From assembly GCA_947632375.1 (NCBI GenBank), contig CANRPF010000003.1, positions 33,099-97,098 on the forward strand: 64,000 nt of DNA, given 5' to 3'. The position numbers were made by a program, and so were the translations under genes. The notes below the pieces were generated by a model. The model was given only the letters and a program-made list of their open reading frames with translations. It was not told the DNA's origin and searched no databases. Shown here piece by piece: positions 12,613 to 64,000 of this stretch; the stretch's first letter is position 1, and each line of letters opens with the position of its first letter. This DNA comes from an uncultured Bacilli bacterium. Lineage in GTDB: Bacteria > Bacillota_I > Bacilli_A > RF39 > UBA660.

Positions 12613-12623
12613 GGAGGTAAATT

Positions 12624-12749: not shown

Positions 12750-12815
12750 GAGGTATAAACCTCTTTTTTTTTAAAACTTAATATGATAAAATTAGTATAA
12801 TAGAAGGTGATTCAT

Positions 12816-14570: not shown

Positions 14571-14577
14571 AAAAACT

Positions 14578-14751: not shown

Positions 14752-14823
14752 AATATATTCCCTCCTTAAATAGAATTCTAGTTGAGTTTATCATAAAAAA
14801 AATTAAAAGTCAATCTAAAATAG

Positions 14824-15495
14824 CTATATATGTTTTTTATATATTTTAATTATTTCTTCAGCTTCTAATACTGAGTCATTTGTATGAAAATTTTCAAATA
14901 TTATTTTTTGTTTTAAAAATATAAGAATTTTTTTTAAATCTTTTAAAGACATATTATCTATTGAATTAATATCTATTATAGAATCTTTATCTATTATTTT
15001 TTTATTTATTATTTTTTTAGTTTTATTAGATATTTTTAAATTTTTATTAATTTCTTTATTTTCATCTAATATTTTATTTTTATCTAATTCTTCTATATTA
15101 AAATATATTATATTTTTATTTATATCTTGTTTTAATATATGTATATTATATATATTTTTCAAAGTATTTATTGTTAATAAACTAGAAATTATTAACATGA
15201 TTTTTGTTAGAATAATATTACATGTTAAAGATAAAATAAATATTATTAAGTATAATAATAAGTAATGTTTTTCTATTTTTAAATTATTATTTAAAATTTT
15301 TATTATATTTTTATCTAATTTATAAAAATTATCTAACATAATATTATTTAATTTAATTTTAATATCTTTAGTTAATCTTAATTTTTGTTTAGTTTTATTA
15401 GCATACTTAATAATTATATTATAATCTTTAATTTTATAATTTAATATAAAAGTATCTTTATCTATATTTGATACATATTTGCTATAATCTTTCAT
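14824..15495 (-). CDS. Hypothetical membrane protein (223 aa)
   Basis: RBS AAAGGAA before ATG; central paired hydrophobic segments; divergent from dnaE. Confidence 0.55.
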   Translation of the reverse strand: MKDYSKYVSNIDKDTFILNYKIKDYNIIIKYANKTKQKLRLTKDIKIKLNNIMLDNFYKLDKNIIKILNNNLKIEKHYLLLYLIIFILSLTCNIILTKIMLIISSLLTINTLKNIYNIHILKQDINKNIIYFNIEELDKNKILDENKEINKNLKISNKTKKIINKKIIDKDSIIDINSIDNMSLKDLKKILIFLKQKIIFENFHTNDSVLEAEEIIKIYKKHI

Positions 15496-15563
15496 ATGTT
15501 CCTTTCTTAAAACATATTAAAAATTATGCTATTTTATTATATAATATTCTTGAGGTGACTAAT

Positions 15564-18410: not shown

Positions 18411-18426
18411 ATTTAATCAACTTTTT
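18396..18426. terminator. Bidirectional terminator between dnaE and rpsD
   Basis: AAAAAGGTTGATTAAATTTAATCAACTTTTT. Confidence 0.75.
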
Positions 18427-19027
18427 ATCTATTATAGAATTCAACGATAAGTGATTCGTTAATTTCAGCATTTAATTCATTTCTTTCAGGTAATCTTAAA
18501 TAAGTACCTGTTAATTTTTTATTATCAAATTCAACAAAAGCAGGAGTTTTAATATTTAACTCTAATGTATTCTTTATAGCTTTATGTTCTAATGAATTTT
18601 CTTTAACACTGATAACATCACCAGGTTTGCAAGTGTAGCTAGGTATATTTACTTTTTTACCATTTACTAAAATGTGTCCATGATTAACAATTTGTCTTGC
18701 ACCACGTCTAGTAGTAGATAAACCCATTCTATAAACTAAATTATCTAGTCTACTTTCAAGTAATCTTAAGAAATTTTCACCTTGAATACCCTTCATTTTA
18801 GAAGCTTTTTCAAAAGTTCTTCTAAATTGTTTTTCATTTAATCCATACATAAATCTAACTTTTTGTTTTTCTTGTAATTGGATTCCATATTCACTTGTCT
18901 TTTTTCTTCTACTTGTTCCATGAATTCCTGGAGCATATGGTTTACGAGCTAACTCTTTACCATTTTCTAATGTTGAAAAACCTAATCTACGAGATTTTTT
19001 GTATGAAGGTCCTGTATATCTTGACAT
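18425..19027 (-). CDS. rpsD: 30S ribosomal protein S4
   Basis: [34 protein letters not shown]; canonical S4. Confidence 0.97.
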
Positions 19028-19169
19028 ATTTATCTCCTTTCTTTAATTTTACGTTTGTTGGTTTAAATTATTAATAGGGTGTTATTTATTCTTTCACTTT
19101 GGCAGCAAGCTACTAGATTCAAGAAATAAACACAATTACTAATATTTAAATCTCTGCCACAAATACGCA
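19028..19169 (-). promoter_or_regulatory. Long structured rpsD 5' leader (candidate S4 autoregulatory leader)
   Basis: Minus-strand TTGACA-16 nt-TATAAT (-10 at 19176-19181) places the start ~140 nt before ATG; leader contains GTGTTTATTTCTT...AAGAATAAATAACAC long stem. Confidence 0.5.
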
Positions 19170-43880: not shown

Positions 43881-43890
43881 GAAGTGTGTT

Positions 43891-44619
43891 ATGAAAAAAA
43901 GATATTATTTATTAATAGCAAGTTTGTTGGTGTTACCTTTGATTAACGCAAATGCTTCTTCTGAAGCTTTACCAGGTACTGCCAATTATGATGCTTTTAA
44001 AAATGCATATACAAAACATGAACAAATAACTGTTAATTCATCAGCAACTGTTACTATTTATGCAGAAGCAACTTGTACATTAAGTCCAAAGACTTGTTCA
44101 CTATTATATCAAGGTGGATATGAGACAATTGACGATGCTTTAATACATAACATTGTTTGTGCAAATGGAGAAAAAAACATAGTTGCACAAGATATGGGTT
44201 CAGCTTGTGATTCATATAATGATACTAATGACGCAAATTACGATAATGAAGAACCTGCTTATTGTTCATCTGATTTCTATATAACATGTACAAGTAGTTC
44301 TTCTGGTAATAATACATTAGGACTTGATTCAAGTTCTTCATCAGAAAAAACTACTCAAAAGCCATCTTCAAGTGGTGGTTCTTCTGGAGGCTCTTCTAGT
44401 GGAAGCAGTTCTTCTGGAAGTACATCTAGTGGTGGAAGTTCTTCAAGCGGAAGTAGTAGCTCATCTAGTGGATCAGGCTCTAAATATGAAGGATCATCAG
44501 CAGAAAAAAGTCCTCAAACAGGAGTAGGAACTTATTATATTGTATTAGGTGTAGTTGCTATATTAGCTTATAGCTTAATGCTAGTAGTAAAGAAATTTAA
44601 TTTATTTAAAAAACTATAA
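43891..44619 (+). CDS. Secreted Ser/Gly-rich surface protein with sortase-like signal SPQTG
   Basis: Signal peptide; Ser/Gly linker; SPQTGVGTYYIVLGVVAILAYSLMLVVKKFNLFKK. Confidence 0.75.
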   Translation: MKKRYYLLIASLLVLPLINANASSEALPGTANYDAFKNAYTKHEQITVNSSATVTIYAEATCTLSPKTCSLLYQGGYETIDDALIHNIVCANGEKNIVAQDMGSACDSYNDTNDANYDNEEPAYCSSDFYITCTSSSSGNNTLGLDSSSSSEKTTQKPSSSGGSSGGSSSGSSSSGSTSSGGSSSSGSSSSSSGSGSKYEGSSAEKSPQTGVGTYYIVLGVVAILAYSLMLVVKKFNLFKKL

Positions 44620-44736
44620 TTATGAACCTTTAATGGTTCTTTTTTTGATAAAAAAAGTACGGGCTTATAGTACTGATAATTTGTGTTTTTATTGTTTTAA
44701 TAAAATTTGTATGTTATATTTTGATTAGGAGTTAGT

Positions 44737-46196
44737 ATGAAAAAATACAAGAAGATATTATTTTATTGCAGTTTATTAATTATTTCATTTTTTATATGTT
44801 ATCAATGTGATACGAATCCATTTGTTGAACGAAGATTAAATGCAGACTCTAGCGTTTAAATATATATTGGTGAGATGATTAAAAAAGGTTTTTTACCATA
44901 TAGAGATATTTTTGATAATAAAGGCCCACTTTTATATTTGATTAATTTTCTAGGTATTCTATTAACGAATCATGGGTATATGGGTATTTGGTTAATAGAA
45001 GTAATTTTTATGTTCTTTGATTTGGTTTTTATTGATAAAATATGTAGACTTTTTTTTAACAATAGAATATTTTCAATTTTTATAATATCATTTTTGGCAA
45101 TTCCAATTGCTACTTTTTTAGAAGGCGGTAATTATTCAGAAGAATATGCAATGCCATTTATATTAATGTCATTGTATTATTTTATAAAGTATATACTTTA
45201 TCCAGATAAATATAAATATTATGAAAGTTTAATTACGGGTATTTCAATGGCGTTTGTATTATTGTTACGTCCAAATATGATTACTTTATGGTTAGTTTAT
45301 GCTTTGTTCTTTCTTTTTGATTTTATAAAAAAGAAGAAATTCGTAGAACTAAGTGAAACCATCTTTTATTTCTTTGTTGGATTGCTCAGTGTGCTATCGA
45401 TTTTTTATTAATTCTTAGCTATAAAGGAATACTAATTGATTGTATAAAAGAATATATAATTTTTAATTTTAAATATACAACAGTGCATAATGTTACACCT
45501 CTTTATTCATTATCAACTTTTTTAGAAAAAACATCATTTTTATTCTTTTCTTTTTGTATGCCATTTGTATATTTATTTTTTAGAAGAAAAAATAATATTA
45601 ATATGACTATTGCAAGTATTATCTATTTGTTGTTAACTCTTTTATTAATTATATTACCAGGAAGAATTTATGGACATTATATGTTGTTTATAATTCCTGC
45701 ATTTATAATACCTATTTTAATGTATTTTGATCTTATTAATAGTTTTAAAAATATTTATGTATTGATTATAGGAATATTATTTATTATGTTTTTATGTAAA
45801 GATAATATGAGCACTGTTTTCGATATATATAATAATTTAAATACAAATACTATTACAGCAGATGTGTTAAAAACAGTAATAAATAAAAATACTGAAAAAG
45901 ATGATAAAATAATAGTATTCGGTAATGAAAGTAGAATTTATTTAGAAACAAAACATTTAGCAGCTAGCAAACATATAATTCAGCTTCCTGCTGTATATGT
46001 TGATAGCTATTTAATGGATAATTTTGTTCATGATTTAGATTCTTGTTCGGCCAAATTAATTTTATATACTAAATTTAAGCTTTATTCACCTAAGAATGTT
46101 ATTATAAAAAATAAAATAGATACTCTTTTAAAAGAAAAAAAGTATAAAGAATTAACTGAAGTGGCTAATTATGTAATATTGAAGAGAAATGATTGA
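44737..46196 (+). pseudogene. Membrane glycosyltransferase/mannosyltransferase-like protein (GT39/ArnT-like layout), interrupted by a nonsense codon and a frameshift
   Basis: N-terminal fragment MKKYKK...NADSSV-TAA(44857-44859)-IYIGEMIKKGFLPYRDIFDNKGPLLYLINFL in one frame; frame lost at T6 run 45401-45406; one extra T restores IFLLILSYKGILIDCIKEY...MHNVTPLYS. Confidence 0.78.
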
Positions 46197-46264
46197 AATT
46201 TAGTATATTGATTTTATTTCAAAAATATTATATTATGTTAATAGAGACTACAAGCTAATAGGAG

Positions 46265-47365
46265 TTGGTAAAATTGAAAAAAAAGTTACTATTAATATTA
46301 AGTTGCTTATTGCTAGTTCCTCTTGGAACTAAAGCTGCAACTCAAAGTACAGAGGTTGGGTATGATTTAACACAATATCAGTGTTCGAAATTGCAAGATA
46401 GAAGTATAACTACTAGTGATAGTGTATATTTTTCACAATGTATGAAAGCTACTTGTAATAATTTAGAATATAAATTAAATTATTATTCAAATAATACTGT
46501 AAAATGTTCAAATGGAAATACTAAACCTTATTATAATTTATATAAAAATGGTTGTGCAAATTATCAAACTTCAGTATGTAATGATAATACAGTAAAATAT
46601 TGTTCTATAGTTATGTATTATGATTGTAATAAAAAGCAAGATGGATCAGATTATACTACTACAACAACAAAAACTAAAAAGCCTACAAATACAAAAACAA
46701 CAACAACTAAAGCACCTGTTAAAAGCAATACTAAACTAAGTAGTTTAACTTTATCTAGTGGAAGTATAGCATTTAATAGTGATACTTATGTTTATAATAT
46801 GATTGTTGGTCAAAATATTAATAGTATTGTTGTCAATGCAGTTCCAGAGGATTCGAATAGTAAAGTTGCAGTTAGTGGAAACGATAACATTTCTAATGGT
46901 AGTGTTATTTCAATAGTAGTAACAGGTACTGATGGTTCCACTAGTGAATATAAAATTAATATTTTAAAAGAGTCAGCACAGAATTTATCAAATAATACAA
47001 GATTAAAATCATTGAATGTAGAAGATTATAATATCAATTTTAGTCCTAATATAAATGAATACTCTGTAACTATAGATGAAGATATTAAAGAATTATCATT
47101 GGATTATGAAACTGAAGATTCTACTTCAACTGTTACAGTAAGTGGTAACAATAATTTATCTAATGGTAGTAAAGTAGTTTTAAATGTAACTGCTCAAGAT
47201 GGAACAACAGGACATTATACATTAAATATTTTTGTTAGAAAAAAATCTAATATAATAAAAATATTATTTATTATAGTATTGTTATTGGCATTAGCAGCTG
47301 GTGGCTATTATATGTACAATAAATTTATGGCGAATAGAAAGGGAGATAAATATGAATATGAATAA
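46265..47365 (+). CDS. Surface protein with Cys-rich N-terminus, Thr/Lys linker, two cadherin-like beta-sandwich domains and C-terminal TM
   Basis: LSSLTLSSGSIAFNSDTYVYNMIVGQ..., LKSLNVEDYNINFSPNINEYSVTIDE...; TM at C-terminus. Confidence 0.72.
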   Translation: MVKLKKKLLLILSCLLLVPLGTKAATQSTEVGYDLTQYQCSKLQDRSITTSDSVYFSQCMKATCNNLEYKLNYYSNNTVKCSNGNTKPYYNLYKNGCANYQTSVCNDNTVKYCSIVMYYDCNKKQDGSDYTTTTTKTKKPTNTKTTTTKAPVKSNTKLSSLTLSSGSIAFNSDTYVYNMIVGQNINSIVVNAVPEDSNSKVAVSGNDNISNGSVISIVVTGTDGSTSEYKINILKESAQNLSNNTRLKSLNVEDYNINFSPNINEYSVTIDEDIKELSLDYETEDSTSTVTVSGNNNLSNGSKVVLNVTAQDGTTGHYTLNIFVRKKSNIIKILFIIVLLLALAAGGYYMYNKFMANRKGDKYEYE

Positions 47366-47873
47366 AATATCAAAATGTGCTTTGATATTCATCTTCTCCT
47401 TTTTTCTTTTTAGTTTAAATTCTTTCGCTGCAACAACAACTACTTCTGTGAATTGTAATGCATTAGGTAAAAAAGCCTGCCAAGCTTATGGTGGAAAATG
47501 CAGATGGATGAGTGGTACTTGCCAAGAACAATATGTTGCTCAATCTCCATGTAGCGATAAGAATATCAGAACTGTTTTAAGATTGGCTGGTTATGCTCTT
47601 AAACTTGCAACAATTGCAATTCCTATAATATTAATAGTTTTAGGAACTATTGATTTATATAAAGCAGTTGTTGATAAAGATGAAAAAATGTTTTCAAAAC
47701 AAATAAAGGTATTTTTAATAAGAGTAGCGATTGGTATATTTGTATTTTTTATACCAACCATTACGAAAGCATTGTTTAGCTTAGATGATAATATAAATGT
47801 TACTGAAGATAATGAATATAAACTATGTGAGATTTGTTTATTAGAACCATCTAAATGTGATATTTCGAATTGA
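47352..47873 (+). CDS. VirB2/TrbC-like T4SS pilin-like protein
   Basis: Signal peptide, two TMs separated by DLYKAVVDKDEKMFSKQIKVF, Cys tail CEICLLEPSKC; overlaps upstream gene. Confidence 0.6.
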   Translation: MNMNKISKCALIFIFSFFLFSLNSFAATTTTSVNCNALGKKACQAYGGKCRWMSGTCQEQYVAQSPCSDKNIRTVLRLAGYALKLATIAIPIILIVLGTIDLYKAVVDKDEKMFSKQIKVFLIRVAIGIFVFFIPTITKALFSLDDNINVTEDNEYKLCEICLLEPSKCDISN

Positions 47874-51468: not shown

Positions 51469-51714
51469 ATGAAAGAAGCAAGTGGAGAATTAAGTGTAAC
51501 AGCAATTACTGTAATAGCAATCGCTGCAATTGCAACATTATTCATGGTATTAATTTATCCAAGAATTAAAAATCAAATAGTAAGTGGAGCAAATTGTTCG
51601 GCAGCATTTGCTTGTAAAGATATTTCAGGAACAAATACTAGAAGTTGTTTATATTATACTAATGAAAATGGTAGTACTGCTAGTGTTGTTTGTCCAAAAC
51701 AAGATGATGTTTAG
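51469..51714 (+). CDS. Small pilin-like protein (Flp/class-III-like)
   Basis: MKEASGELSVTAITVIAIAAIATLFMVLIYPRIKNQI then short Cys-containing domain. Confidence 0.5.
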   Translation: MKEASGELSVTAITVIAIAAIATLFMVLIYPRIKNQIVSGANCSAAFACKDISGTNTRSCLYYTNENGSTASVVCPKQDDV

Positions 51715-51755
51715 TATTATTTAAAAAATTAATTAAGAAGGAAAGGAAGACATAA

Positions 51756-52244
51756 ATGAGAGAATCTATAGGAGCAACTTGGTTGTTAGGTTTAGTTATC
51801 GCATTTATAATATTCTTTTCTTCTTTTTTAGCTTTATCAGTAAATTATAGTAAAGCATTCAATGTTAAGAATAATATTGTAGACTTTGTGGAAAAATATG
51901 AAGGTAATACTTGTGAAACTAGAAAGGCTATAGGAGAATATTTATATGATGTCGGCTATCTTGTAGCAGGAAATTGTCCTACTGAAAAAGACGATGATGG
52001 TAACGTTATTAGGACATATAAAGGATATGGAACTGATGGAAACGAGACTAGTGGCAAAGCATATTATTGTATTTCTGAAGAAGCACATGAAGATGATAAT
52101 GGCCTTAAAAAAACTTGGTTTAGTGTCATAGTATTTTTTAAAGTTGATTTACCAATTATAGGTGATTTAACTACATTTAGAATAAAAGGGGAAACTGAAT
52201 CAATATATTTCCCTGGTGAGGATGCTCATCCAGGTGCATGTTAA
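51756..52244 (+). CDS. TadE-like pseudopilin/membrane protein
   Basis: MRESIGATWLLGLVIAFIIFFSSFLALSVNYSKAFNVKNNIVDFVE: short cytosolic N-terminus, one TM, extracellular Cys-containing domain. Confidence 0.5.
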   Translation: MRESIGATWLLGLVIAFIIFFSSFLALSVNYSKAFNVKNNIVDFVEKYEGNTCETRKAIGEYLYDVGYLVAGNCPTEKDDDGNVIRTYKGYGTDGNETSGKAYYCISEEAHEDDNGLKKTWFSVIVFFKVDLPIIGDLTTFRIKGETESIYFPGEDAHPGAC

Positions 52245-52257
52245 TAGGAGATAAAGT

Positions 52258-53304
52258 ATGAATGTAATAATTGCAAATGAAAGAAATCAAGAGTTAAGTT
52301 CATTAACAATTGATGTAATAAAAAAAGTTGAAGGTGTTTACCCTGTTAATGAATTAGTTGCAATGTTCACTAATTTTTTCTTTAATAAGATGATTTTGGA
52401 CATTACTTCTATAAAAGACTATAATGATTATAGAAATTTAAAACAGTTTTTTCAAACAATAGATGTAAGTAAAGTAATTCTATATTTAGCTGATAATAGT
52501 GCATGTAATTCTAAAGAATTTATTTCAAATTTAATAACTCTTGGTGTTTATAATTTTACTAATAATTTTTCAGAGATAATGACTTTATATGAACATCCAA
52601 GAACTTACTCTGAAGTTAGTCATTTACAAATTACTAAGAGTTCTTATGAAATAAATGCTCAAATAGATGCATCAGAACAAAAAGAAGAAAAAGAATTTGT
52701 TTTTGCAGAGGCTGAGGCACCAGCTAATTATGCAGGTGATAAAAGAGTTATTGGTGTTATTAATTTAACAGAGCATGCTGGAGCAACTACTTTAGTTGTA
52801 CAAATGGTTAAACAATTAAATTTATATTATAATGCGATTGGTATTGAAATGAATAAACAGGACTTTGTTTTTTTTGATACAGAGAATATTTATTCTTGTA
52901 CTTCAAAAGATGACGCTATAAAGAAAATTAATAGCTCTGGTGATATAGATGCTGTAATAATTGATTTGAATAATATGGATCCTGAAGGATTTTGTTCTGA
53001 TGTAATATATTTAATGGAACCAGGTACTATAAAGATGACAAAATTAATTAAAAAGAATGGAAAGATATTTGAAGAATTATCTGGACAGAAATTAATTTTG
53101 AATAGAGCTAATTTAGATGATAATGAAGTAAGTGAATTTGAGGTGGAAAGCCATACTAAGATATTCTGTGTTGTTTCTAATTTTAGAGATAATTTAGAAA
53201 GAGTTATAAGTGTTGATAAATTGCTTTCTAAACTAGGATATCGTAAATGTGGCAGAAGCGGAGCTGATGCTTCAATTAAAAAGCATGGTTTTTTTAAAAA
53301 ATAA
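52258..53304 (+). CDS. TadZ/CpaE-like protein (pseudo-receiver + degenerate MinD/ParA ATPase)
   Basis: N-terminal receiver-like half; VIGVINLTEHAGATTLVVQMVKQL in Walker A position; VFFDTENIY; DAVIIDLNNMD. Confidence 0.6.
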   Translation: MNVIIANERNQELSSLTIDVIKKVEGVYPVNELVAMFTNFFFNKMILDITSIKDYNDYRNLKQFFQTIDVSKVILYLADNSACNSKEFISNLITLGVYNFTNNFSEIMTLYEHPRTYSEVSHLQITKSSYEINAQIDASEQKEEKEFVFAEAEAPANYAGDKRVIGVINLTEHAGATTLVVQMVKQLNLYYNAIGIEMNKQDFVFFDTENIYSCTSKDDAIKKINSSGDIDAVIIDLNNMDPEGFCSDVIYLMEPGTIKMTKLIKKNGKIFEELSGQKLILNRANLDDNEVSEFEVESHTKIFCVVSNFRDNLERVISVDKLLSKLGYRKCGRSGADASIKKHGFFKK

Positions 53305-53418
53305 TTATAGTGATAATCAATTTTCACTTTTTTTATAAACTTTTTACATATAGTTTAAAATTGTATTGACATTATTTTATATTTTTTTTAAAATAATAGT
53401 AGAAAGAAGAGGTTTTTT

Positions 53419-53799
53419 ATGAATATATTAACTTTAGGATCAGGAATAACAGATTTTTGTCAAAAGATGGCTAATGTTGTTCAATTGATAGGATATATTT
53501 TGTTAGTATTTAAAATAGCAATACCATTAATTATTATTGCATTAGGTATGTTTGATTTTGGTAAAGCTGTTGTTGCAGAAAAAGAAGATGAAGTTAAGAA
53601 ACAAACTAAGAGATTAATTTATAGAATTGTAGCAGGAATTGTTATATTCTTTATTCCTACTATTGTTATGTTTTTATTTGATATAGCAGTAAGTTATGAT
53701 ACTGAAAAAGAAGAAGCTGGATTTGATGTTTGTCAACAATGTATTTTGTCTCCAGGTTCTGCTGAATGCAAGACTAAAGTATCTGCATCAAAAAATTAA
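53419..53799 (+). CDS. VirB2/TrbC-like T4SS pilin-like protein
   Basis: Two TMs with DFGKAVVAEKEDEVKKQTKRL connector; CQQCILSPGSAEC tail similar to the 47352 product. Confidence 0.62.
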   Translation: MNILTLGSGITDFCQKMANVVQLIGYILLVFKIAIPLIIIALGMFDFGKAVVAEKEDEVKKQTKRLIYRIVAGIVIFFIPTIVMFLFDIAVSYDTEKEEAGFDVCQQCILSPGSAECKTKVSASKN

Positions 53800-53880
53800 T
53801 AGAAAACAACCTTTACAGGTTTTTTTTTTTTTGGTATACTTGTGTATGTATACTATACAAATTCTTAGAAGAGGTAATTT

Positions 53881-54231
53881 ATGAAAGGCAAAAAGGTTAT
53901 TAAATATTTGGCTTGTGCTTACTTAGTTATTTTTAGTTTTAATAATTTAGTATTAGCTGATAGTATAGATTGTAAAAGTATGGGTGATTTTAGAACTGAC
54001 ATACAAAATTTATTTAATTTTTTAAAGATAATATTGCCACTATTAGTTATTGTTTTAAGTACTTATGATTTTATTAGAGCAATTACTGCTAAAGATGAAA
54101 AGGATGTAAAAAAGGCATTTCAAAAATTGTTAAAGAGATTTGCGTGTGCTGTTATTTTGTTTATTTTGCCGACAATTTTAAATTTACTTTTAGATCTTCT
54201 TGGTATAGGCAGTAGTGTATGTATAGAGTAG
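53881..54231 (+). CDS. VirB2/TrbC-like T4SS pilin-like protein
   Basis: Signal peptide, two TMs with DFIRAITAKDEKDVKKAFQKLLKRF connector. Confidence 0.62.
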   Translation: MKGKKVIKYLACAYLVIFSFNNLVLADSIDCKSMGDFRTDIQNLFNFLKIILPLLVIVLSTYDFIRAITAKDEKDVKKAFQKLLKRFACAVILFILPTILNLLLDLLGIGSSVCIE

Positions 54232-54241
54232 GAGGACAAAA

Positions 54242-56566
54242 ATGAACTTATTAAGTTTAGGTGGAGTAATAGAAGAATTATTAAACACTTTAGTTTTAGC
54301 GATTTGTCAGCCTATTTATATATTGATTAGTTGGCTTTATCAGCTATATGAAAGAATATGTAGTATTAATTTATTTAGTTCTGAAGTTTTTGAAGAAATA
54401 ACGGGAAGAATTTATGTAATAATGGGAATAGCAATGCTATTTATTTTTGCGTATAATTTGATTTTGATGGTTATTAATCCTGATGATAAAAAGGGTACAG
54501 GAGAAACAGGTAAAGTTGTTAAAAATACTGTTATTTCGTTAATAGTAGTTGTGTTATTGCCTACGATATTTAATTATTTATATATAATTCAAAGTCATGT
54601 TTTGGAATCAAACATAATATCTCAGATTATTTTAGGTACTACAGGTAGTACTTCTGGCACTGATGATTGTGATGCAAATGATTATGAATGTAAGTGTGAT
54701 TATTCTAATTATGATAATTTGGATAAATATAATAATCAGATTAGGTTAAAGTTGTTTGGTATAATTAAGATATTTGATTTTAATTGGGGTACTGATAAAA
54801 CAGACAATTTGAATAAAGCATGTAAAGCTTATAAAAATGATTTGACACCATCGCAAAGAGGAGCTTATTCTGTAGCGCCTACTGTATTTGCTGCTTTTTA
54901 TCATCCTAATGAATTTGATTATGATGATTGTGCAGAGTATATTGTAAATAATGATACTTCTATTATTAATGATTCTACTAAAGAACAAATTTGTGTTAAT
55001 TATTACTATGATGTTAACTTTTCTAGATATTCAGGAAATGTAATACCTATGTTAACGGATACTTATTTAAATAATCAGGTTACTGATAATGATGGAGGAA
55101 TGACGTTCTCTTGGTTCCCAGCAATTATAGCTGGTGGACTTGCGGCATGGATGTTCTGGTGTTATGCATGGGAAGTAGGAGTTCGTGTAGCTAAATTAGG
55201 ATTTTTACAAATGATATCTCCAATAACAGTAATGTTAAGAATTGTGCCAAAACAAGGTGAAAAAATATTTGATGAGTGGTTTAAGAATGTAAAAAGTGCA
55301 TATTTAGATGTATTTATTAGATTGTTTATTATAAATTTTGCATTGTTTGGTATTAGTTTGATTCCAAGCGTTCTTAAAACCATTTGGTCAAGTACAATTA
55401 ATGGCGATGGAGGATTTGTAATAAAATCATTAGCAGCGGCAATATTGATTTTAGGTATAATGAAATTTGCTCAAGAAGCGCCTAAGTTGTTAAAAGATAT
55501 ATTTCAATTATCTGGTAATTTCCCTCTTAGAAGTGTTAAAAAACAAGTTCAAGATAACAAGATGGCAATGGGTATTATTGGAGGAGCAACATCCGCAGTA
55601 AAAACTAGCGTAGGTAATGTAATTCGTACTTATAATGTTGATGATGATAAGGCAAAACCATCTACAGGTGAAGTTATTAGAAGCGGTTTAGGAGGATTTG
55701 GAGCTGGTGCATATAGAGGATTTAAAGAAGGTTATAAATCAAAGGATTTTGATGAATTAGATACTGCAGTAACTAGAGCAAAAGCTACTAATGATGAACA
55801 TTATGCTGCGAGAGCTAGAAGAAGAGAAACTAATAGAGAAATATTTGATGAAAATGGTACTTTAGGTGGAATTGTAGAAATCGCTAAAAACAAGTTTGAT
55901 GATGGAAAAGAGACTGTTGTTTCTTGGGGAGCTCCAGCTACTGATAACGCTAAAAGAAAAGCTAATTCAGAAGTTGAAAGCTATGATAAAACTACTCAAG
56001 AGTATGTTGATAAAAAATCTAAAGCTACAGACTATGAAAGCATGCGTGATAGAATGATTTCTCAATTGAATGATCCAAATGTTGAGTTTGAAAACTTCCC
56101 TTTATTAAAAAGGAATGGATTTACGAATAGTTCAGATATCGCTGATGTTAAAAAGTTCATAAGAGATTATTTTGGACAATTGGCTGATGATACTAGAGCA
56201 GAAACGATTAGAGATTTTGTAAAAGATAAAGATGAAACATTTATTGCAACTGTAGAAAATCTTACTAGAAGTATGGAAAGCAATAAGGATTTCTTAGAAG
56301 GTATTTCTGGAGATAAAGGTATGATTCAAAGACTTGTTGATAAAAATGAAAATAATGTCTTTGATATGAGTGCATTAAGTGAAAGTTGTAGACAAGCATT
56401 TAGTGGCAATTTAGATGATTTTGTTAAAGGATTAAATGATTTTGTTAAATCTGGTGATAAAGTTACTATGGAAGATGCTAAGGCGTTCCAAAAAGCTTTA
56501 TATGAAATATCTAAAGTTACAGGAAGTAATCAACAAAGATTATCTCTTGAACAAAAGAAAAAATAG
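54242..56566 (+). CDS. VirB6/TrbL-like T4SS polytopic membrane protein
   Basis: Multiple TMs in first half, FFPAIIAGG-like core and large hydrophilic C-terminal region; position between VirB2-like and PrgI-like genes. Confidence 0.68.
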   Translation: MNLLSLGGVIEELLNTLVLAICQPIYILISWLYQLYERICSINLFSSEVFEEITGRIYVIMGIAMLFIFAYNLILMVINPDDKKGTGETGKVVKNTVISLIVVVLLPTIFNYLYIIQSHVLESNIISQIILGTTGSTSGTDDCDANDYECKCDYSNYDNLDKYNNQIRLKLFGIIKIFDFNWGTDKTDNLNKACKAYKNDLTPSQRGAYSVAPTVFAAFYHPNEFDYDDCAEYIVNNDTSIINDSTKEQICVNYYYDVNFSRYSGNVIPMLTDTYLNNQVTDNDGGMTFSWFPAIIAGGLAAWMFWCYAWEVGVRVAKLGFLQMISPITVMLRIVPKQGEKIFDEWFKNVKSAYLDVFIRLFIINFALFGISLIPSVLKTIWSSTINGDGGFVIKSLAAAILILGIMKFAQEAPKLLKDIFQLSGNFPLRSVKKQVQDNKMAMGIIGGATSAVKTSVGNVIRTYNVDDDKAKPSTGEVIRSGLGGFGAGAYRGFKEGYKSKDFDELDTAVTRAKATNDEHYAARARRRETNREIFDENGTLGGIVEIAKNKFDDGKETVVSWGAPATDNAKRKANSEVESYDKTTQEYVDKKSKATDYESMRDRMISQLNDPNVEFENFPLLKRNGFTNSSDIADVKKFIRDYFGQLADDTRAETIRDFVKDKDETFIATVENLTRSMESNKDFLEGISGDKGMIQRLVDKNENNVFDMSALSESCRQAFSGNLDDFVKGLNDFVKSGDKVTMEDAKAFQKALYEISKVTGSNQQRLSLEQKKK

Positions 56567-56577
56567 GAGGAATATAA

Positions 56578-56898
56578 ATGAACAACAATCAATATTTAAT
56601 ACCTGCTAACTCGAAGAAGTCTATGTTGATTTTAGGCTTCTTCAATGTAACAGATTTGATTATATTTATTACAGGTTGCATAATAACGTTTATACTATTA
56701 ATGTTAATAAAGACGAATTCTTTGAAAGAAGCATTCTTCATTATTACCCCTGCATTAATTAGTGCGTTTCTAGTAATGCCTGTACCAAATCATCATAATA
56801 TAAGGACTTTTATAAAAAACGTTTATCAATATTTTAGTAATGAAAGAGTATATAAGTGGAAAGGTTGGTGTATAAGAAATGGCGAAAAACAAAAGTAA
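56578..56898 (+). CDS. PrgI/VirB3-like T4SS inner membrane protein
   Basis: Two TMs then PVPNHHNIRTFIKNVYQYFSNERVYKWKGW, a PrgI-like tail. Confidence 0.75.
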   Translation: MNNNQYLIPANSKKSMLILGFFNVTDLIIFITGCIITFILLMLIKTNSLKEAFFIITPALISAFLVMPVPNHHNIRTFIKNVYQYFSNERVYKWKGWCIRNGEKQK

Positions 56899-57439
56899 TA
56901 CAAAATATACTGAAGATTGGGTTCCAATAAAAGGTATAAAAAATGGTATGATTCAATTAGAAAGTAATTATTTTGTTACAGGTATTCGTGTAGAACCAAA
57001 AAATATTTTTATTCTAGATTATCAAGAACAAAATAATATAATATTTAGTTTTAGAAATTTTTATAATGTAATTGACTATGAATTTTGGTTAGTTGTTTGT
57101 GATAGACCTGTAGATATAAATATGTATTTAGCACAATTGCAATTAATGTATTCTAATGCATCTACTCAACAAATAAGAAAGGTTATAAAGCAAGATATTG
57201 ATAAAGGAGAAGCATTTAGAAGTACTGCAGTTAATGCCGTTGATACAGAATATTACATTTTGTTTAGAGATAAAAAAACAGAAGTATTACAGAAAAGAGT
57301 TCATACATTAATAAGTAATTTAGCAACATGTGGTTTAAACTCTAGACAAGTTACTGATGATGATTTAAGAGTAATTTTAGATAGTTTCTTTAATGGAAAT
57401 GTAAAAACTGAGTTTGGGACGGTGATGAGTAGTGTCTAG
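56879..57439 (+). CDS. TraC-like/VirB4 N-terminal domain as separate protein
   Basis: VPIKGIKNGMIQLESNYFVTGIRVEPKNIFILDYQEQNNIIFSFRNFYN; overlaps both neighbours. Confidence 0.7.
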   Translation: MAKNKSNTKYTEDWVPIKGIKNGMIQLESNYFVTGIRVEPKNIFILDYQEQNNIIFSFRNFYNVIDYEFWLVVCDRPVDINMYLAQLQLMYSNASTQQIRKVIKQDIDKGEAFRSTAVNAVDTEYYILFRDKKTEVLQKRVHTLISNLATCGLNSRQVTDDDLRVILDSFFNGNVKTEFGTVMSSV

Positions 57440-59234
57440 TACATTTAAAAGTGAAATAGCCCCTAAGGGAATAGATTTTGATTTAAATCAATTTGTAATA
57501 AGTGATAAATTTTGTACTATTTTTACTGTAATTAATTATCCTAAATTAATAGGTCCAGGATTTTTATCTAATATTACTAATTTACCAGGAGTAAAAGTCG
57601 TTGTTAAACATATACCTATTGAATTTTCTACAATGAGTAAGATGATTAATAAAGAAATAGCTGATTTAAAAGAACGTTATCAACATGAAAGAGATAGAAC
57701 AATGCAAGAAAGTATTCGTCAAGATTATGAATCTTTGGAAAGTTTTGTTTCTATGCTTGCAGCTACTCAATCTAGAATATTTGATTTTCAAATGCACATT
57801 ATGTTATCTGCAGATACTAAAGAAGAATTAGAAATGAAAAAGATTCAAACTAGAAATTATTTGGATGCTTTAGGATTAAGAGGTATTCCAATGATGTTTG
57901 AACAAGAAAAAGTTTTGAAATCAATGATACCTATTTTCCCTAAACAAGATATTGAAGAAAGAGTAGGTATTCCAATTCCAAGTCCTACTATAGCAGCAAT
58001 GTATCCATTTGTATTTGATAGTATAAAAGATCCAGGAGGAGAATTTACTGCACCTACATTATTAGGAGTTGATTTCTCTGGTGGTGTTGTTTTATTTAAT
58101 CAATTTTTATATCAAACTAAAAAAGAATTTAATAGAAATAATGCCAATATGATAATTTTGGGTACATCAGGTAGTGGTAAATCAACTGCCGCTAAATTAA
58201 TGTTAAGAACACATATAAGAAATGGTTGTCAATTAATATGTATTGATCCTGAAGGTGAACTTGAGGAAATGACAAAAAACTTTGGTGGAGATTTTATTGA
58301 TTTAGGTAAAGGTGGAAAATTCGGTATAATAAATCCATTAGAAGTTATAGTAGATGCTGATGAAGATGAATTAAAACAAGGATTAGGTTATACAGTATTA
58401 ACTAGAACGTTACAATCATTAAAAGCTTTCTTAAAATATTATAGTCCAGATATTGAAGAAGATGTACTTGCTATGTTTAGTGAAGTAGTTCAAGATACAT
58501 ATAAAAGATTTAATATTGATTTTAATACAGACTTTAGTAATTTTACTTCAAAAGATTATCCTACATTTGATGACGTTTATAGTACTATTAAAGGTAGACT
58601 TTTATCTATGCCTGAAGCAACAAGAGAAAAAGATGTTATGGAACGTCTTGAATTAAAAATAAGACCATTTGTTAAAGAATTAAGATATTATTTTAATGGT
58701 CATACTACTATTACACAAGATAGTGACTTTATGGTATTTAATATAAAAGAATTAATGAATAGTGATGAATCTATAAGAAATGCTTTATTCTTTAATATTT
58801 TAAAATATGCTTGGGGCTTATGTTTAGATCCTTCTGTAAATACAGTATTAATGGTTGATGAAGCTCACGTATTATTAGGTGGAAGAAATGAATTAGGTGC
58901 TGAATTCTTAGCACAAATGCAAAGAAGAAGTAGAAAATATAATACAGGTACTATTATAATTACTCAACAACCTACTGACTTTGCAGCTGAAAATGTTATA
59001 GTTCATGGAAAAGCAATATTTGACAATGCATCATATTACTTAATAATGGGTTTAAAAAAGCAAGCAGTTGAAGATTTAGCTAAGTTAATAGATTTAAATG
59101 ATAATGAAAAAGAAAGTATTAAAAGTTATAGTCAGGGAGAAGCATTATTTGTTTGTGGAAGTCGTCGTATGAGAATTAATGTTATTTTAACTCAAGAAGA
59201 ACTTGATTCATTTGGTAGCGGCGGCGGATTGTAA
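57432..59234 (+). CDS. VirB4-family T4SS ATPase
   Basis: LGTSGSGKSTAAKLMLRTHI Walker A, CIDPEGELEEMTKNFGGDFIDLG, VLMVDEAHVLL, ITQQPTDF. Confidence 0.92.
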   Translation: MSSTFKSEIAPKGIDFDLNQFVISDKFCTIFTVINYPKLIGPGFLSNITNLPGVKVVVKHIPIEFSTMSKMINKEIADLKERYQHERDRTMQESIRQDYESLESFVSMLAATQSRIFDFQMHIMLSADTKEELEMKKIQTRNYLDALGLRGIPMMFEQEKVLKSMIPIFPKQDIEERVGIPIPSPTIAAMYPFVFDSIKDPGGEFTAPTLLGVDFSGGVVLFNQFLYQTKKEFNRNNANMIILGTSGSGKSTAAKLMLRTHIRNGCQLICIDPEGELEEMTKNFGGDFIDLGKGGKFGIINPLEVIVDADEDELKQGLGYTVLTRTLQSLKAFLKYYSPDIEEDVLAMFSEVVQDTYKRFNIDFNTDFSNFTSKDYPTFDDVYSTIKGRLLSMPEATREKDVMERLELKIRPFVKELRYYFNGHTTITQDSDFMVFNIKELMNSDESIRNALFFNILKYAWGLCLDPSVNTVLMVDEAHVLLGGRNELGAEFLAQMQRRSRKYNTGTIIITQQPTDFAAENVIVHGKAIFDNASYYLIMGLKKQAVEDLAKLIDLNDNEKESIKSYSQGEALFVCGSRRMRINVILTQEELDSFGSGGGL

Positions 59235-59248
59235 TAGGATGTGATTGT

Positions 59249-61348
59249 ATGAAAAAGATATATGTTTTTAAAAGATGGGCGATAGTCGCTTGTCTTTTGA
59301 TAACATTTTTTTGTATTAGTATAACTGCTAATGCATCTAGTTTTGCATATTCTGACTTTAATTGGGAAGAATTTTTAGAACAAAATAAAAATTATTGGGT
59401 TCAAGTATGTGAAACCGATGATAAAGAATGTCAAGATGAAATTTTAAAAACTAAAGAAAAATTTTATAAAAGACTTTATAGTTTATTAACTAAGTTTGAA
59501 AATAAAGGTTATAAAATTAATGATAATATTATTATTGAAACAGTATTTTATGGATTAACACCAGATACTTTTAGAGATGAAGGTACTTTAAAAGATGAAT
59601 ACGTTGGTCAAATTCATAAATATGGATATAAAGTAGATGAAGGTAATAAAAAAGAAAGTTATATAGCAAGTACTGATAATGATATTGAAGGAGCTAGAGA
59701 ATACTTTAAAAATGAAACCGATAGTTTAAAGACATTAATGAATGCCATGATTGGTTATTCTCAAGTTTGTTATGGAGTTTCTGCATCAGCTCCAAGAGCA
59801 GTACAAAATGAAAATGGTACTACTTCTTATGTTTGTGATGGCGAAGAGTTTGTGCCAATGAATGGTCAATGTGTAGCGAAAGTAGACATTTTAGAAGCTT
59901 CATTCTTTGATGCTATAGGATTATCTATATTTAGTAGTGAAAATAATGATGATAAATGTAAAGCTTTAACTACTATGTATCCAAGTTATAAATTAGGTGA
60001 AGTAACTGATAATGGTGTAAATGAAGATTTATATTGGAAATTTTTAGAGAATAATATATATTTTGATAATAAGCCTCAATTACAAGATTATTTTGATTTA
60101 GTTTTAAAAAAGACAAATCATAAAAAAATGGAAGAGCTTACTTTAGATGAATATAAAGCTAATAAAGATGATATTATCGACGCCAGAAAAAGAATAATAA
60201 CATATATAAAAGAAGTATTAGATAATTATGGTGATTTTGCTGAAACACCTTCAAGTACTTTCGCAAGTTATGTAGCTGGTAATAACGACTTATATTGGTG
60301 GCCTGTTGGTGGTTCTGAAATTACTAATAATGGTAATATTGCAATGGCAATAGGAACTCCAACTAGTACAAGAATAACTAGTAAGTTTGGTGTAAGAGTT
60401 CACCCTGTCACAGGAAAAGCTGGTTCAATGCATTATGGTGTTGATATAGGTGCTACAGAAGGTGTTGCAAGTGTTATAGCAGCTAAGAGTGGAGTTGTTG
60501 TATATCCACCACAAGGAAATAAAGGAAATTGTGTTAAAGGTGACCAATCTTGTGGAGGTTCTTATGGAAATTATGTAATAATTCAACATAGTGATGGAAA
60601 TTATACATTATATGCGCATATGGCTACTAATTCTTTAAGAGTTGCAGCTGGTGATAGTGTTGTTCAAGGTCAAGTAATTGGTACTGTAGGAAGTACAGGA
60701 CGTTCTACAGGAGGACACGTTCACTTTGAAGTTAGAGTAGGAGGAAATAGTGGCTCTGCTGCTCAAGAACCTTTAAATTTTATTTCTGCTGATAATCCAA
60801 GACCTGTTTCAGCAAGTTCTGTAACAGAAGGTGGAGCTTCTAGTGGATCAAGTAATTTAATTGAATTTATACATAGTTGGGAAGGTACTCCAAAACAAAG
60901 TGGATCAGATTATATTGCATTTGACGATGGATATGGTAATGTAACAATTGGATGGGGAGTTGTTCCTAAATATAATAAAGATAGATTTTTATCATTAGGT
61001 GTTGATCCAAATAGTATTACAGTTGGTTCAAAAGTTTCAAAAAGTGTTGTAGATAGAGTAGAACAAATGGAATTAGATTCTGCACTAAATTCAATTAAAT
61101 CTATGTTATCTAAAGAAGGAATTACTTTACAAGGATATCAGATTGATGCTTTAGTAAGTAGAAAATATAATTATAATGTTAATGGTTTTGCTGATGCTTA
61201 TAAAAAGTATGGAACATCTCAAGCATTATATGATAACTATATGTCTAAGCCAATAACTGCAAGTGGAGTTAGATCTCAAGGTCTTGTTCGTAGAAGAGAA
61301 GCTGAATGGGAATTATTCTCAAAAGGTATCTATAAAATGAATAGTTAG
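59249..61348 (+). CDS. Secreted bifunctional cell-wall hydrolase: M23 peptidase + GH24 lysozyme-like domain (T4SS-associated)
   Basis: HPVTGKAGSMHYGVDIGA...GHVHFEVRV; C-terminal FIHSWEGTPKQSGSDYIAFDDGYGNVTIGWG...LVRRREAEWELFSKG. Confidence 0.88.
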   Translation: MKKIYVFKRWAIVACLLITFFCISITANASSFAYSDFNWEEFLEQNKNYWVQVCETDDKECQDEILKTKEKFYKRLYSLLTKFENKGYKINDNIIIETVFYGLTPDTFRDEGTLKDEYVGQIHKYGYKVDEGNKKESYIASTDNDIEGAREYFKNETDSLKTLMNAMIGYSQVCYGVSASAPRAVQNENGTTSYVCDGEEFVPMNGQCVAKVDILEASFFDAIGLSIFSSENNDDKCKALTTMYPSYKLGEVTDNGVNEDLYWKFLENNIYFDNKPQLQDYFDLVLKKTNHKKMEELTLDEYKANKDDIIDARKRIITYIKEVLDNYGDFAETPSSTFASYVAGNNDLYWWPVGGSEITNNGNIAMAIGTPTSTRITSKFGVRVHPVTGKAGSMHYGVDIGATEGVASVIAAKSGVVVYPPQGNKGNCVKGDQSCGGSYGNYVIIQHSDGNYTLYAHMATNSLRVAAGDSVVQGQVIGTVGSTGRSTGGHVHFEVRVGGNSGSAAQEPLNFISADNPRPVSASSVTEGGASSGSSNLIEFIHSWEGTPKQSGSDYIAFDDGYGNVTIGWGVVPKYNKDRFLSLGVDPNSITVGSKVSKSVVDRVEQMELDSALNSIKSMLSKEGITLQGYQIDALVSRKYNYNVNGFADAYKKYGTSQALYDNYMSKPITASGVRSQGLVRRREAEWELFSKGIYKMNS

Positions 61349-61356
61349 GTGGTTGT

Positions 61357-61875
61357 ATGAAATTAAAACAAAGTGATTATAAATTAATTGGAATTTGTGT
61401 TGTTTTAGTTATAATAAGTTTAGTAATTTTTAGTTTGAAAAATGAAAAAGAAGATAATAAAGATACAAATGATTATTCAAAATATAAATTAGTAACTGAT
61501 TATTCTAGATTTTTTACTGTAAATTCTTGTATATATAAATATATTGTATTTTTAGAAACAGAGGATTTTGATAATTTATTTAAAGTACTTGATAAAGATT
61601 ATGTTGAAAATAATAATTTAAATTCTAATAATATATATAATTATATATCTAAATTAGAAGGTAATAATTCATTTGTTTCTAAAAAAATGTATTCAGAAGA
61701 AATAAGTAGTGACTATATTAGATATTATGTATATGGATATTTATACTTAGATGATTTAGATAGTCCTAAAAAAAGTGGTGAAAATTACTATATAGTAGAT
61801 TTAGATTTAAAAAATGAATTATTTAGTATAACACCTTCTAATGAACAATCATTTAGGGAGGTACAAAATGGATAA
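61357..61875 (+). CDS. VirB8-like bitopic protein
   Basis: One N-terminal TM and ~140-aa extracytoplasmic alpha/beta domain; located within T4SS cluster. Confidence 0.45.
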   Translation: MKLKQSDYKLIGICVVLVIISLVIFSLKNEKEDNKDTNDYSKYKLVTDYSRFFTVNSCIYKYIVFLETEDFDNLFKVLDKDYVENNNLNSNNIYNYISKLEGNNSFVSKKMYSEEISSDYIRYYVYGYLYLDDLDSPKKSGENYYIVDLDLKNELFSITPSNEQSFREVQNG

Positions 61876-62365
61876 TATACTTTATAATAAAAAAGTAATA
61901 CTTTTATGTTTTATATTAGTAATAATTGTTTTTGTAATATTTTATTTAATAAGTAATGGTGTTTTTTCTAAATATGAAGAAACTGAAGATAATATAAATT
62001 ATTTAAGAAATTATGAAGCAAATGAATTTATGCCTGTTTATGTAACTGAACAAGATATGGCATCAAAATATTTGATTGATTATAAAAATAATATGTTAGT
62101 AGATGAAAATGCTGCATATCAAAGTTTAAATGAAGAATATAGAAATAAAAAATTTGGAAATAAAGAAAACTATATTAAATATATTAATGAGAATTTGAGT
62201 TTATCAACAATCAGTATGGAAGTTGATAGATACTCAGTAGCTACTATAAATGGTTATAAGTTCTTTAAAGTTTATGATAAAAGTGATAGATATTATATTT
62301 TCAAAGAAAAATCAATAATGGATTATGAAGTTTATTTAGATGATTATACTGTAGAATTAAAATAA
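61868..62365 (+). CDS. VirB8-like bitopic protein (second copy)
   Basis: Same topology and size as preceding gene, overlaps it by 8 nt. Confidence 0.45.
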   Translation: MDNILYNKKVILLCFILVIIVFVIFYLISNGVFSKYEETEDNINYLRNYEANEFMPVYVTEQDMASKYLIDYKNNMLVDENAAYQSLNEEYRNKKFGNKENYIKYINENLSLSTISMEVDRYSVATINGYKFFKVYDKSDRYYIFKEKSIMDYEVYLDDYTVELK

Positions 62366-62380
62366 AGGTGGTGAAGTCGA

Positions 62381-64000
62381 ATGGGTACTTATAAGGCAAA
62401 TAGAAATAATGAAAATCCCGAAAATGCTGAAAAATCTGAAAAACAACAAAAAGAGGAATCTACTGAAAAATTAGTTGATGAAGGTTTAGGTGTTGCTGCG
62501 GAAGCTGTAGGTACTTATTTTGGTATCCCAGGAGGCGGAGCCATTTATGATAGTGCCAAAAATATGCCTGTAGTAGGAGATGCAATTAATGGTACAGTTC
62601 ATAATATTGGTAAGACTTTAGCTAAAACTCCTGTTGGAGATATAGCTGAAAAAGCCGATGAGGCTGGATTAACAGATGCTTTAGGGACTGCAAGACAGAT
62701 GTTTTCATCTGTCTCTTCTGCTGGTGCCGGAGCACCTACACAAGGTGCTGGAGCTGCTGCTGGTGCTGCGGGTGCTGTAGGTGCAACTGCTCCTATGGGA
62801 GCTGGAGGTAGTCAAGCTAATATAGTAAGTACACCAAAGCTGAATAATTCAACACCAGGTGTAAATGGAAATAATAGTGCACTTTCACAATCAGCAAATA
62901 AAACTAACATGGCAGAAGATAGAGCCAACAAAGAAAAAGGATTAACCGTAGATGACATTTCTGATTTAGATTTATTAGACGGCGGTTATAATGAAGAAGA
63001 GGAAACGGAAGAAAAAGAGAAAAAAGATAGAAGACCTTCTATTATTTTGTTGTTAATTTTATCTCCAACTGCTTTTATATTTTTATTCTTAATTTTATTC
63101 TTAGCTTATGATGATTATGCAAATTTAAAATTAACTAATAATACTATCTTAGCTTCATCAAGTGTAGGAAAAACTACTTGTACTACGCAAGAGATTGCAA
63201 CTAAAATGTTATATTTTGGTGATAAAACTGTTGAAGATATTAAGAAAGTTGTAAATAATAGTGATATTAAATATATAAGTGATAATAATGCCGATTATGA
63301 CAAATTAGCTGATTCTTTCTCTATTATTGAATCTCAATTATCTAATGATGTTTCTATAGTAGTTTTTGCTTTAGGAAGAAATGATTTAAATAATATAGAT
63401 AGTTATGTAACTTATTATAAAAATTTTATAAATACACATGATGGTATTAATGTATATTTTTTATCTGTTGTTCCTTCAAATGATGCTAATGAAAATATAG
63501 CTATTGACAGTTTTAATCAAAGATTAAAAGCAGAATTTTCATCAAAATATATAGATGTTTATAGCAATGTTATCTATAACTACGATGTTTTTGGTAATAT
63601 TGATAGTAATGCTATAAATGCAATACATAGTGAAGTTTTATCAACTGTTGGCTCATCATCAAACGTTACTTGTTCTTCTGGAACTATTAACCAAATAAGT
63701 TCAAGTGTAACAAGTGGTGGTGGAAAGGCAATTTTAAAAAACGGAGAAAGTATTGTATCAAAAATTGGTCAAGCAGAATTAGATAAATGGAATGCTAATA
63801 TTAAAAATGATGTTAATAAAGCTGGTAAAGGGACCGGTGATGCAATTGCGATAGCTGCTTATGATTTAGTTACAGGAGCTTATAATTACGGTTTTGTAAT
63901 TCCGTATTTTTGGGGCGGAGGACACGGAAACATTAGTGATGGAATTGATCCTTCATGGGGTTCATCAGCTAAAATAACAGCCTCTGGATCAAGTGCCCAA
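62381..64000 (+). CDS. T4SS-associated membrane protein: Gly/Ala-rich N-terminus, one TM, SGNH-hydrolase-like segment, start of a possible NlpC/P60-like domain (truncated at window end)
   Basis: MGTYKANRNNENPENAEKSEKQQKEES...; TM PSIILLLILSPTAFIFLFLILFLAYDDY; VVFALGRNDLNN; ...NYGFVIPYFWGGGHGN; open to base 64000. Not in ORF track. Confidence 0.65.
   Translation, partial: MGTYKANRNNENPENAEKSEKQQKEESTEKLVDEGLGVAAEAVGTYFGIPGGGAIYDSAKNMPVVGDAINGTVHNIGKTLAKTPVGDIAEKADEAGLTDALGTARQMFSSVSSAGAGAPTQGAGAAAGAAGAVGATAPMGAGGSQANIVSTPKLNNSTPGVNGNNSALSQSANKTNMAEDRANKEKGLTVDDISDLDLLDGGYNEEEETEEKEKKDRRPSIILLLILSPTAFIFLFLILFLAYDDYANLKLTNNTILASSSVGKTTCTTQEIATKMLYFGDKTVEDIKKVVNNSDIKYISDNNADYDKLADSFSIIESQLSNDVSIVVFALGRNDLNNIDSYVTYYKNFINTHDGINVYFLSVVPSNDANENIAIDSFNQRLKAEFSSKYIDVYSNVIYNYDVFGNIDSNAINAIHSEVLSTVGSSSNVTCSSGTINQISSSVTSGGGKAILKNGESIVSKIGQAELDKWNANIKNDVNKAGKGTGDAIAIAAYDLVTGAYNYGFVIPYFWGGGHGNISDGIDPSWGSSAKITASGSSAQ

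Follow-up and report, generated by a model that had tools for sequence, protein, structure and literature searches.

A chromosomally fixed Tad-like and type IV secretion gene cluster in an uncultured order of Bacilli, probably a relative of the pLS20-type conjugation apparatus

Introduction

Why should genes for a tight adherence (Tad) pilus and genes for a type IV secretion system (T4SS) lie in one cluster, and is such a cluster a mobile element or part of the chromosome? The question is raised by positions 51469–64000 of a 64,000-nucleotide stretch of DNA from an uncultured Bacilli bacterium, referred to here as the window (G000:C3:33099-97098), whose end is the exact end of contig C3. A sequence-only reading of the window had described at least 13 co-directional, tightly packed genes as a chromosomal, possibly undescribed, hybrid of the two systems, and had noted no relaxase, integrase or VirD4 coupling protein. 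Below, G000 is the window's own genome and C3 and C28 are two of its contigs, while L-numbers denote loci and other G-numbers denote the genomes of relatives.

Genes for Tad export, for a T4SS channel and for a VirD4 coupling ATPase make up the system to which the cluster belongs, with no relaxase found in the locus. Its core occurs, mostly as a single copy, in nearly all genomes of one uncultured order of Bacilli and is inherited vertically there. The reading that we prefer, with a probability of roughly 0.62, is that the system is a relaxase-free, domesticated and chromosomally fixed relative of the conjugation apparatus of pLS20-type plasmids.

Results

Conservation and inheritance

The T4SS ATPase VirB4 is encoded in 264 of the 288 genomes of the order, covering 96 of its 104 genera and nearly always as a single copy, and the Tad ATPase TadA is encoded in 240 of the 288. 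Sampled across the class, the close form of VirB4 was confined to the order: it was present in 30 of 33 genomes from the window's own family, while only 8 of 213 others match at 1e-60, all far more weakly, and elsewhere in the class the relatives of VirB4 are distant. Comparison of VirB4 and RpoB trees from 28 genomes gave 12 shared splits out of 25 (permuted mean 0.23, maximum 3), with no conflict carrying support of at least 95 on both sides and a Mantel r of 0.87 (largest permuted value 0.33). VirB4 is the less diverged of the two proteins, with a mean distance of 0.47 vs 0.84 for RpoB.

The S10 operon flanks the cluster in the window's genome, and in relatives its neighbours are other housekeeping genes. 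The locus itself yielded neither a relaxase nor an integrase, in an analysis that did not extend to att repeats, and the sampled relaxases and recombinases have no match in 1.7 Mb of loci. In a genome-wide search confined to the MOBP class of relaxases (PF03432), the window's genome had none, while 20 of 90 genomes of the order had a match over the cut-off. Since it is near-universal, congruent with RpoB and without a detected relaxase, the cluster is a chromosomally fixed system and not an integrative and conjugative element (ICE).

Organization of the operon

The 13 open reading frames (ORFs) of the window, all on the + strand, overlap or are closely spaced up to the contig break, in agreement with the sequence-only reading:

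51469..51714, +, Flp-like major pilin of 81 amino acids, MKEASGEL followed by a hydrophobic helix, identified by context and N-terminus
51756..52244, +, TadE-like pseudopilin of 162 amino acids, family F7
52258..53304, +, TadZ-like MinD/ParA-fold protein with a receiver-like N domain and a degenerate P-loop (HAGATTL), by AlphaFold and Foldseek, family F10
53419..53799, +, VirB2-like T4SS pilin 1, PF18895 at 2.7e-6, over the cut-off
53881..54231, +, VirB2-like T4SS pilin 2, PF18895 at 3.2e-6, over the cut-off
54242..56566, +, VirB6-like polytopic membrane protein, NF045889 (ICE_Mbov_0396_TM) at 9.2e-7, under the equivalog cut-off
56578..56898, +, PrgI/TcpE/VirB3-like membrane protein, PF12648 at 3.5e-4 and PF12666 at 0.048, both under the cut-off
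56879..57439, +, N-terminal part of VirB4 as an ORF of its own, NF045975 at 1.6e-17
57432..59234, +, ATPase part of VirB4, NF045975 at 6.1e-104
59249..61348, +, VirB1-like wall hydrolase with M23 (PF01551, 2.1e-24) and phage lysozyme GH24 (PF00959, 9.5e-7) domains
61357..61875, +, VirB8-like protein 1, a transmembrane helix and an NTF2-like domain, by AlphaFold model
61841..62365, +, VirB8-like protein 2, aligned with VirB8-like protein 1
62381..64000, +, membrane-anchored wall or surface hydrolase, open at the window end, with its C-terminus at the start of C28

The same hydrolase family was matched at C28:3-284, and the related protein in L002 has a weak GDSL match. Contig C28 continues with a lipoprotein, VirD4 at C28:1053-3332, a glycosyltransferase on the opposite strand and the S10/spc ribosomal operon, whose genes (rpsJ and the rest of S10 and spc) are presumed from inspection of the sequence by eye. 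VirD4, which matches NF045973 of the CD1115 conjugation family at 6.1e-89, above the cut-off, escaped the first list because contig C3 ended, so its absence cannot serve as an argument against a conjugative element. The case against a simple conjugative element held nonetheless on other grounds, as VirD4 and then the S10 operon, rather than a relaxase and an integrase, occupy the ground just outside the window. In L002 the stretch from Flp to rpsJ is unbroken and has the same order; C3 and C28 both match this same close relative, and the contamination estimate of the bin is 9%.

The remaining Tad genes lie on the window's own contig. A search with the relatives' profile located TadA at C3:10761-11849, ~70 kb upstream of the cluster, within a DUF5411-CpaB-TadA-TadB-TadC block at C3:9338-13543; the genes that follow this block we take, by eye, to be rimM- and trmD-like.

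Clustering of the ORFs of 80 related loci, together with longer stretches of three genomes, gave a canonical order. It begins with a DUF4352-like membrane protein, an immunoglobulin-like (Ig-like)/DUF6273 protein, a sortase-like protein and a large secreted cysteine-rich protein, and continues through DUF5411, CpaB, TadA, TadB, TadC, one to three Flp-like, one or two TadE-like and one TadZ-like protein. The T4SS part follows as one to four VirB2-like proteins, VirB6, PrgI-like, VirB4-N, VirB4, the M23 hydrolase and VirB8-like or other small membrane proteins, and the operon closes with VirD4, often preceded by a lipoprotein. In many relatives one continuous operon holds the full Tad and T4SS sets, which bears out the proposed chromosomal hybrid. 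The large secreted proteins have ~1000 residues, 29–39 of them cysteines, and no Pfam domain; their position suggests a putative adhesin.

Of the 40 genomes listed for both genes with the two on one contig, 36 have TadA 9.1–13.5 kb upstream of VirB4 on the same strand, a proportion biased towards joined cases by the loss of fragmented genomes. In 46 further genomes the two are on different contigs. Where the operon is split, as in the window's genome and L002/L004, Flp, TadE and TadZ remain with the T4SS genes and not with TadA–C. Rearranged forms occur in L015, L018 and L019, where TadA is on the opposite strand beside PrgI-VirB4 and the neighbours differ.

Upstream of the cluster, at 40908-47873 of the window, are co-directional genes with Cadherin-like domains (4.7e-17 and 2.3e-14) and, at 47301-47873, an additional T4SS-pilin-like protein. 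L002, L004 and, in part, L008 have this set ahead of Flp too, and its products are possible surface cargo of the system.

Type IV secretion components

Family tests upheld the assignments of both VirB2-like pilins, VirB6, the split VirB4 and the M23+GH24 hydrolase, while PrgI/VirB3 stayed weak. The VirB4 split is a family trait and not a frameshift, because 80 loci and, judged by position, also pLS20 have the N-terminal part as an ORF of its own; the Pfam family of this N-terminal region, used alone, missed the system. A PrgI-like gene precedes VirB4 in 75 loci. The two VirB8-like proteins, which share 22% identity (alignment A8), were modelled together and each assignment is by model: one membrane helix and an NTF2-like domain, with a predicted local distance difference test (pLDDT) score of 90. 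The NTF2-like domain is the fold of VirB8. Structural matches of the model are to NTF2/cystatin-like folds and are all weak (E about 0.01–0.07, including 3ub1 at 0.06). The VirB4 ATPase, its channel proteins (VirB6, VirB3/PrgI weakly, VirB8-like by model) and the VirD4-type coupling protein of the same genome (NF045973) fit a T4SS.

Tad components

The Tad-type assignments in the window fared less evenly, as the Flp-, TadE- and TadZ-like genes have no meaningful Pfam or NCBIfam match. They are backed by the relatives' operon, where TadA, TadB, TadC and CpaB lie directly upstream, by prepilin-like N-termini and by the TadZ model. Flp-like family F8 occurs in 41 loci, with A4, G6, E7 and T11 invariant, and its gene follows TadC in relatives with a joined operon; the proteins have a conserved charged-xxxGE N-terminus and a hydrophobic helix, with no canonical E+5/Y+6. 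Flp-like pilins without the tyrosine are known from Gram-positive tad loci (PMC3244431). The TadE-like family F7 (M1, R2 and G6 invariant) and the TadZ-like family F10 occur in 44 loci each. The AlphaFold model of the TadZ-like protein (pLDDT 79) has Foldseek matches to ParF and MinD, showing a MinD/ParA fold behind a receiver-like domain, a fold that is not specific to TadZ. Sequence search of the PDB returned nothing for TadZ and a chance match only for TadC.

Among the export genes, TadA matches the T2SSE ATPase family PF00437 at 8.5e-27. CpaB matches PF16976 at 3e-5 and 8.5e-5, somewhat under the curated cut-off, and the clade's CpaB profile matches a Priestia SAF/CpaB protein at 6e-35. 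Pfam fails to recognize the clade's TadB and TadC even member by member; with hhalign, TadB aligns with a Priestia T2SSF protein at 96.8% (2.6e-10) and TadC with its TadC-like neighbour at 97.3% (1.6e-11). The Priestia plasmid protein that anchors this comparison matches Pfam T2SSF at 3.4e-5, just under the cut-off, and is annotated as T2SSF by NCBI. A prepilin peptidase (PF01478) is encoded in 87 of 90 genomes, including the window's own; its gene lies outside the operon, and the enzyme may also serve Com pili. Any pilin alone would be uncertain, but together these genes are a Tad system.

DUF5411 (PF17424), a Pfam family without known function, stands directly before CpaB in every complete locus (L087 9338-9754; L173-L176, L178) and looks like a Tad pseudopilin. 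On a Priestia koreensis plasmid (L109, 9517-15296) the series DUF5411-SAF/CpaB-ParA-CpaF-T2SSF-TadC-DUF4320 follows Ig-like surface proteins, with no T4SS genes within the 25 kb examined, and may represent this Tad module in stand-alone form.

Comparison with pLS20-type plasmids

A plasmid search with the window genome's TadA returned 154 records at 1e-22, mostly from Bacillus, Listeria and Enterococcus. The layout in the stretches examined, not all of which extend to T4SS genes, is adhesin, DUF5411-like, TadA, two membrane proteins, TadE-like, Flp-like, VirD4, VirB6, PrgI-like, split VirB4 and VirB8-like. The plasmids pLS20, pLGUG1, pZB18 and pL21564-1 share with our locus the adhesin slot, the DUF5411-like pseudopilin, TadA/CpaF, membrane proteins matching TadB and TadC, TadE-like and short Flp-like proteins, VirB6 (p028), PrgI-like, split VirB4, VirB8-like and a CD1115-family VirD4. 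DUF5411-TadA-TadB-TadC-TadE and VirB6-PrgI-split VirB4-VirB8 stand in the same order in both. The plasmids differ in being extrachromosomal and carrying a MOBP relaxase, in having VirD4 before VirB6 and VirB4 and an adhesin of thioester (Tie) or similar type, and in that CpaB and TadZ-like genes were not recognized in them. We therefore class the system as a relative of the pLS20 type and not a member, because its locus has no relaxase.

Profiles built solely from the uncultured clade were compared with the ORFs of pLS20; the E-values refer to this one plasmid, for which noise starts near 0.01–0.03. Strong matches at corresponding positions were obtained for VirD4 (2.4e-67), TadA (1.2e-53) and VirB4 (2.5e-39), followed by VirB6 with pLS20_p028 (3.1e-9) and TadC (5.8e-6). 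Matches for DUF5411 (3.1e-4), TadB (0.0021), VirB8 (0.0025) and TadE (0.012) were weak, and with the Flp profile the expected pLS20 gene was missed. Across pLS20 and related plasmids the TadE profile picks, weakly, a gene of 120 amino acids after TadC (5.7e-5 to 0.057). When the clade's alignments were compared by hhalign with alignments from pLS20-type plasmids, excluding the Priestia anchor because its inclusion inflated the comparison, TadC scored 95.6% (1.2e-8), TadE an intermediate 58% and TadB a weak 17%, with 0.4% for a mismatched-pair control.

In pLS20 itself (L179, 9446-13334), DUF5411-, TadA-, TadB-, TadC-, TadE- and Flp-like genes stand in a row after the adhesin Tie, which suggests that this model Gram-positive plasmid encodes a Tad-like mating pilus. 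NCBI already labels the pLS20 ATPase tadA, so parts of this likeness may be known to annotators; in the literature we found no account of a Tad-like set in pLS20. Nor did we find an account of the present cluster in RF39-like genomes, in a search that left bioRxiv and most subscription papers outside. The arrangement as such is not isolated, being shared, largely in the same order, with pLS20-type conjugative plasmids.

Comparison with other systems

Tad/Flp (type IVc) pili have the same CpaB/RcpC, TadA (T2SSE, with CpaF structures), TadB, TadC, TadE- and Flp-like pilins and TadZ-like protein, with a prepilin peptidase in the genome; the present system differs in its Flp without E+5/Y+6, in the lack of TadV in the operon and in the union with a T4SS. 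The T4SS of Mycoplasma ICEs (Mbov_0395-0397) shares the VirB4 family NF045975, the VirB6-like Mbov_0396 and, weakly, the pilin-like Mbov_0395, but the present proteins score under the curated cut-offs, and the system is not mobile here and has Tad genes joined to it. A tad locus beside conjugation genes has been described for Cutibacterium acnes plasmids, where it shares a replicon with a sortase and VirB4/TcpC-like genes (PMC5696575). These are plasmids of Actinobacteria with an FtsK/TraB-type translocase, and do not represent a fixed chromosomal core locus.

Discussion

As a domesticated relative of the pLS20-type apparatus, the system could work as follows. A prepilin peptidase encoded elsewhere would process the Flp-, TadE- and DUF5411-type pilins, and TadA with TadB and TadC, positioned by the TadZ-like protein, would extend and retract a thin pilus. 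The pilus may show the large cysteine-rich protein encoded just upstream, a candidate tip or surface adhesin by positional analogy with Tie, and so bring about contact with an adjacent cell. The M23/GH24 enzyme would open the wall, VirB2, VirB6, PrgI, VirB8 and the split VirB4 would build the channel, and VirD4 would select substrates and feed it, most likely with proteins rather than relaxase-bound DNA. Judged from gene content, protein delivery or contact has about an even chance of being the main role, and is favoured over DNA transfer because of the missing relaxase and the strong conservation; adhesion alone takes up the probability left by this role and the two DNA-related roles considered below. 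More tentative, and less likely than not, is the proposal that the retractable Tad pilus and the T4SS channel form one composite nanomachine, which would serve the whole order for cell-to-cell protein delivery and pLS20-type plasmids for DNA.

Several observations weigh against the preferred reading. The resemblance of TadB, TadE and Flp to pLS20 proteins is weak and leans on position. TadA is about equally close to CpaF (1.6e-18), VirB11 (1e-17) and FlaI (7e-21), so it cannot by itself decide the Tad identity. The functions proposed for pilus, transfer and substrate derive from the gene content of uncultured organisms. The Tad export genes stand apart from the T4SS genes in the window's own species and in many others, so that physical linkage is not needed everywhere, and L089 (G111, 12918-19063) and L092 (G106, 11790-17551) are reduced to VirB2-VirB6-PrgI-VirB4N-VirB4, with TadA elsewhere in the genome. 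This reduced form adjoins the gene for ribosomal protein L32 and has no VirD4 in the stretch examined.

The Tad and T4SS genes could encode two separate machines that share an operon for co-regulation only. The break between TadC and Flp in the window's own genome and the solitary T4SS core of G111 and G106 agree with this, but in the split operons it is the T4SS genes that keep Flp, TadE and TadZ beside them, and the same combination recurs in pLS20-type plasmids; we consider the explanation unlikely, though it is the strongest competitor. Less probable again is a chromosomal helper apparatus, a host channel used in trans by relaxase-bearing plasmids or mobilizable elements of the clade. Such a role would account for the retention of a VirD4 of the CD1115 conjugation family and could be served by the MOBP relaxases found elsewhere in 20 of the 90 genomes. 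Most genomes, however, have no MOBP relaxase (the only class searched genome-wide), yet nearly all keep the system, and the slow evolution of VirB4 needs a host benefit as its explanation.

Slimmer still are the prospects of a machine for DNA uptake or release, comparable to Helicobacter ComB, the gonococcal island or the Flp-dependent transformation of Micrococcus. The T4SS relative of the gonococcal island can release DNA. A VirD4 coupling ATPase points instead to the export of selected substrates, and the Helicobacter uptake system is not known to have a VirD4. The comparison draws its support from Micrococcus, where Flp pilus genes support transformation (PMC4322843), and from Helicobacter, where a T4SS relative is able to import DNA (PMC6668835).

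An ordinary ICE or integrated conjugative plasmid, with relaxase and integrase just outside, would account for VirB4, VirD4 and VirB6 of conjugation families and for conjugative plasmids as the closest outside relatives, but it was rejected as very improbable and is largely refuted by a mostly single-copy system, present in nearly all genomes and congruent with RpoB, that has housekeeping flanks and, for the relaxases and recombinases sampled, no match in its loci.

Conclusions

If the system is a domesticated relative of the pLS20-type apparatus, an entire order of Bacilli, abundant in the gut and uncultured, would depend on a repurposed mating machine, and a VirB4 motor less diverged than RNA polymerase means that the task of this machine must matter to the cell. 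Conjugation of the pLS20 type would in turn be predicted to use a Tad-like pilus, whereas recent papers describe Gram-positive conjugation systems as apparently without pili (PMC11730352, PMC8092201).

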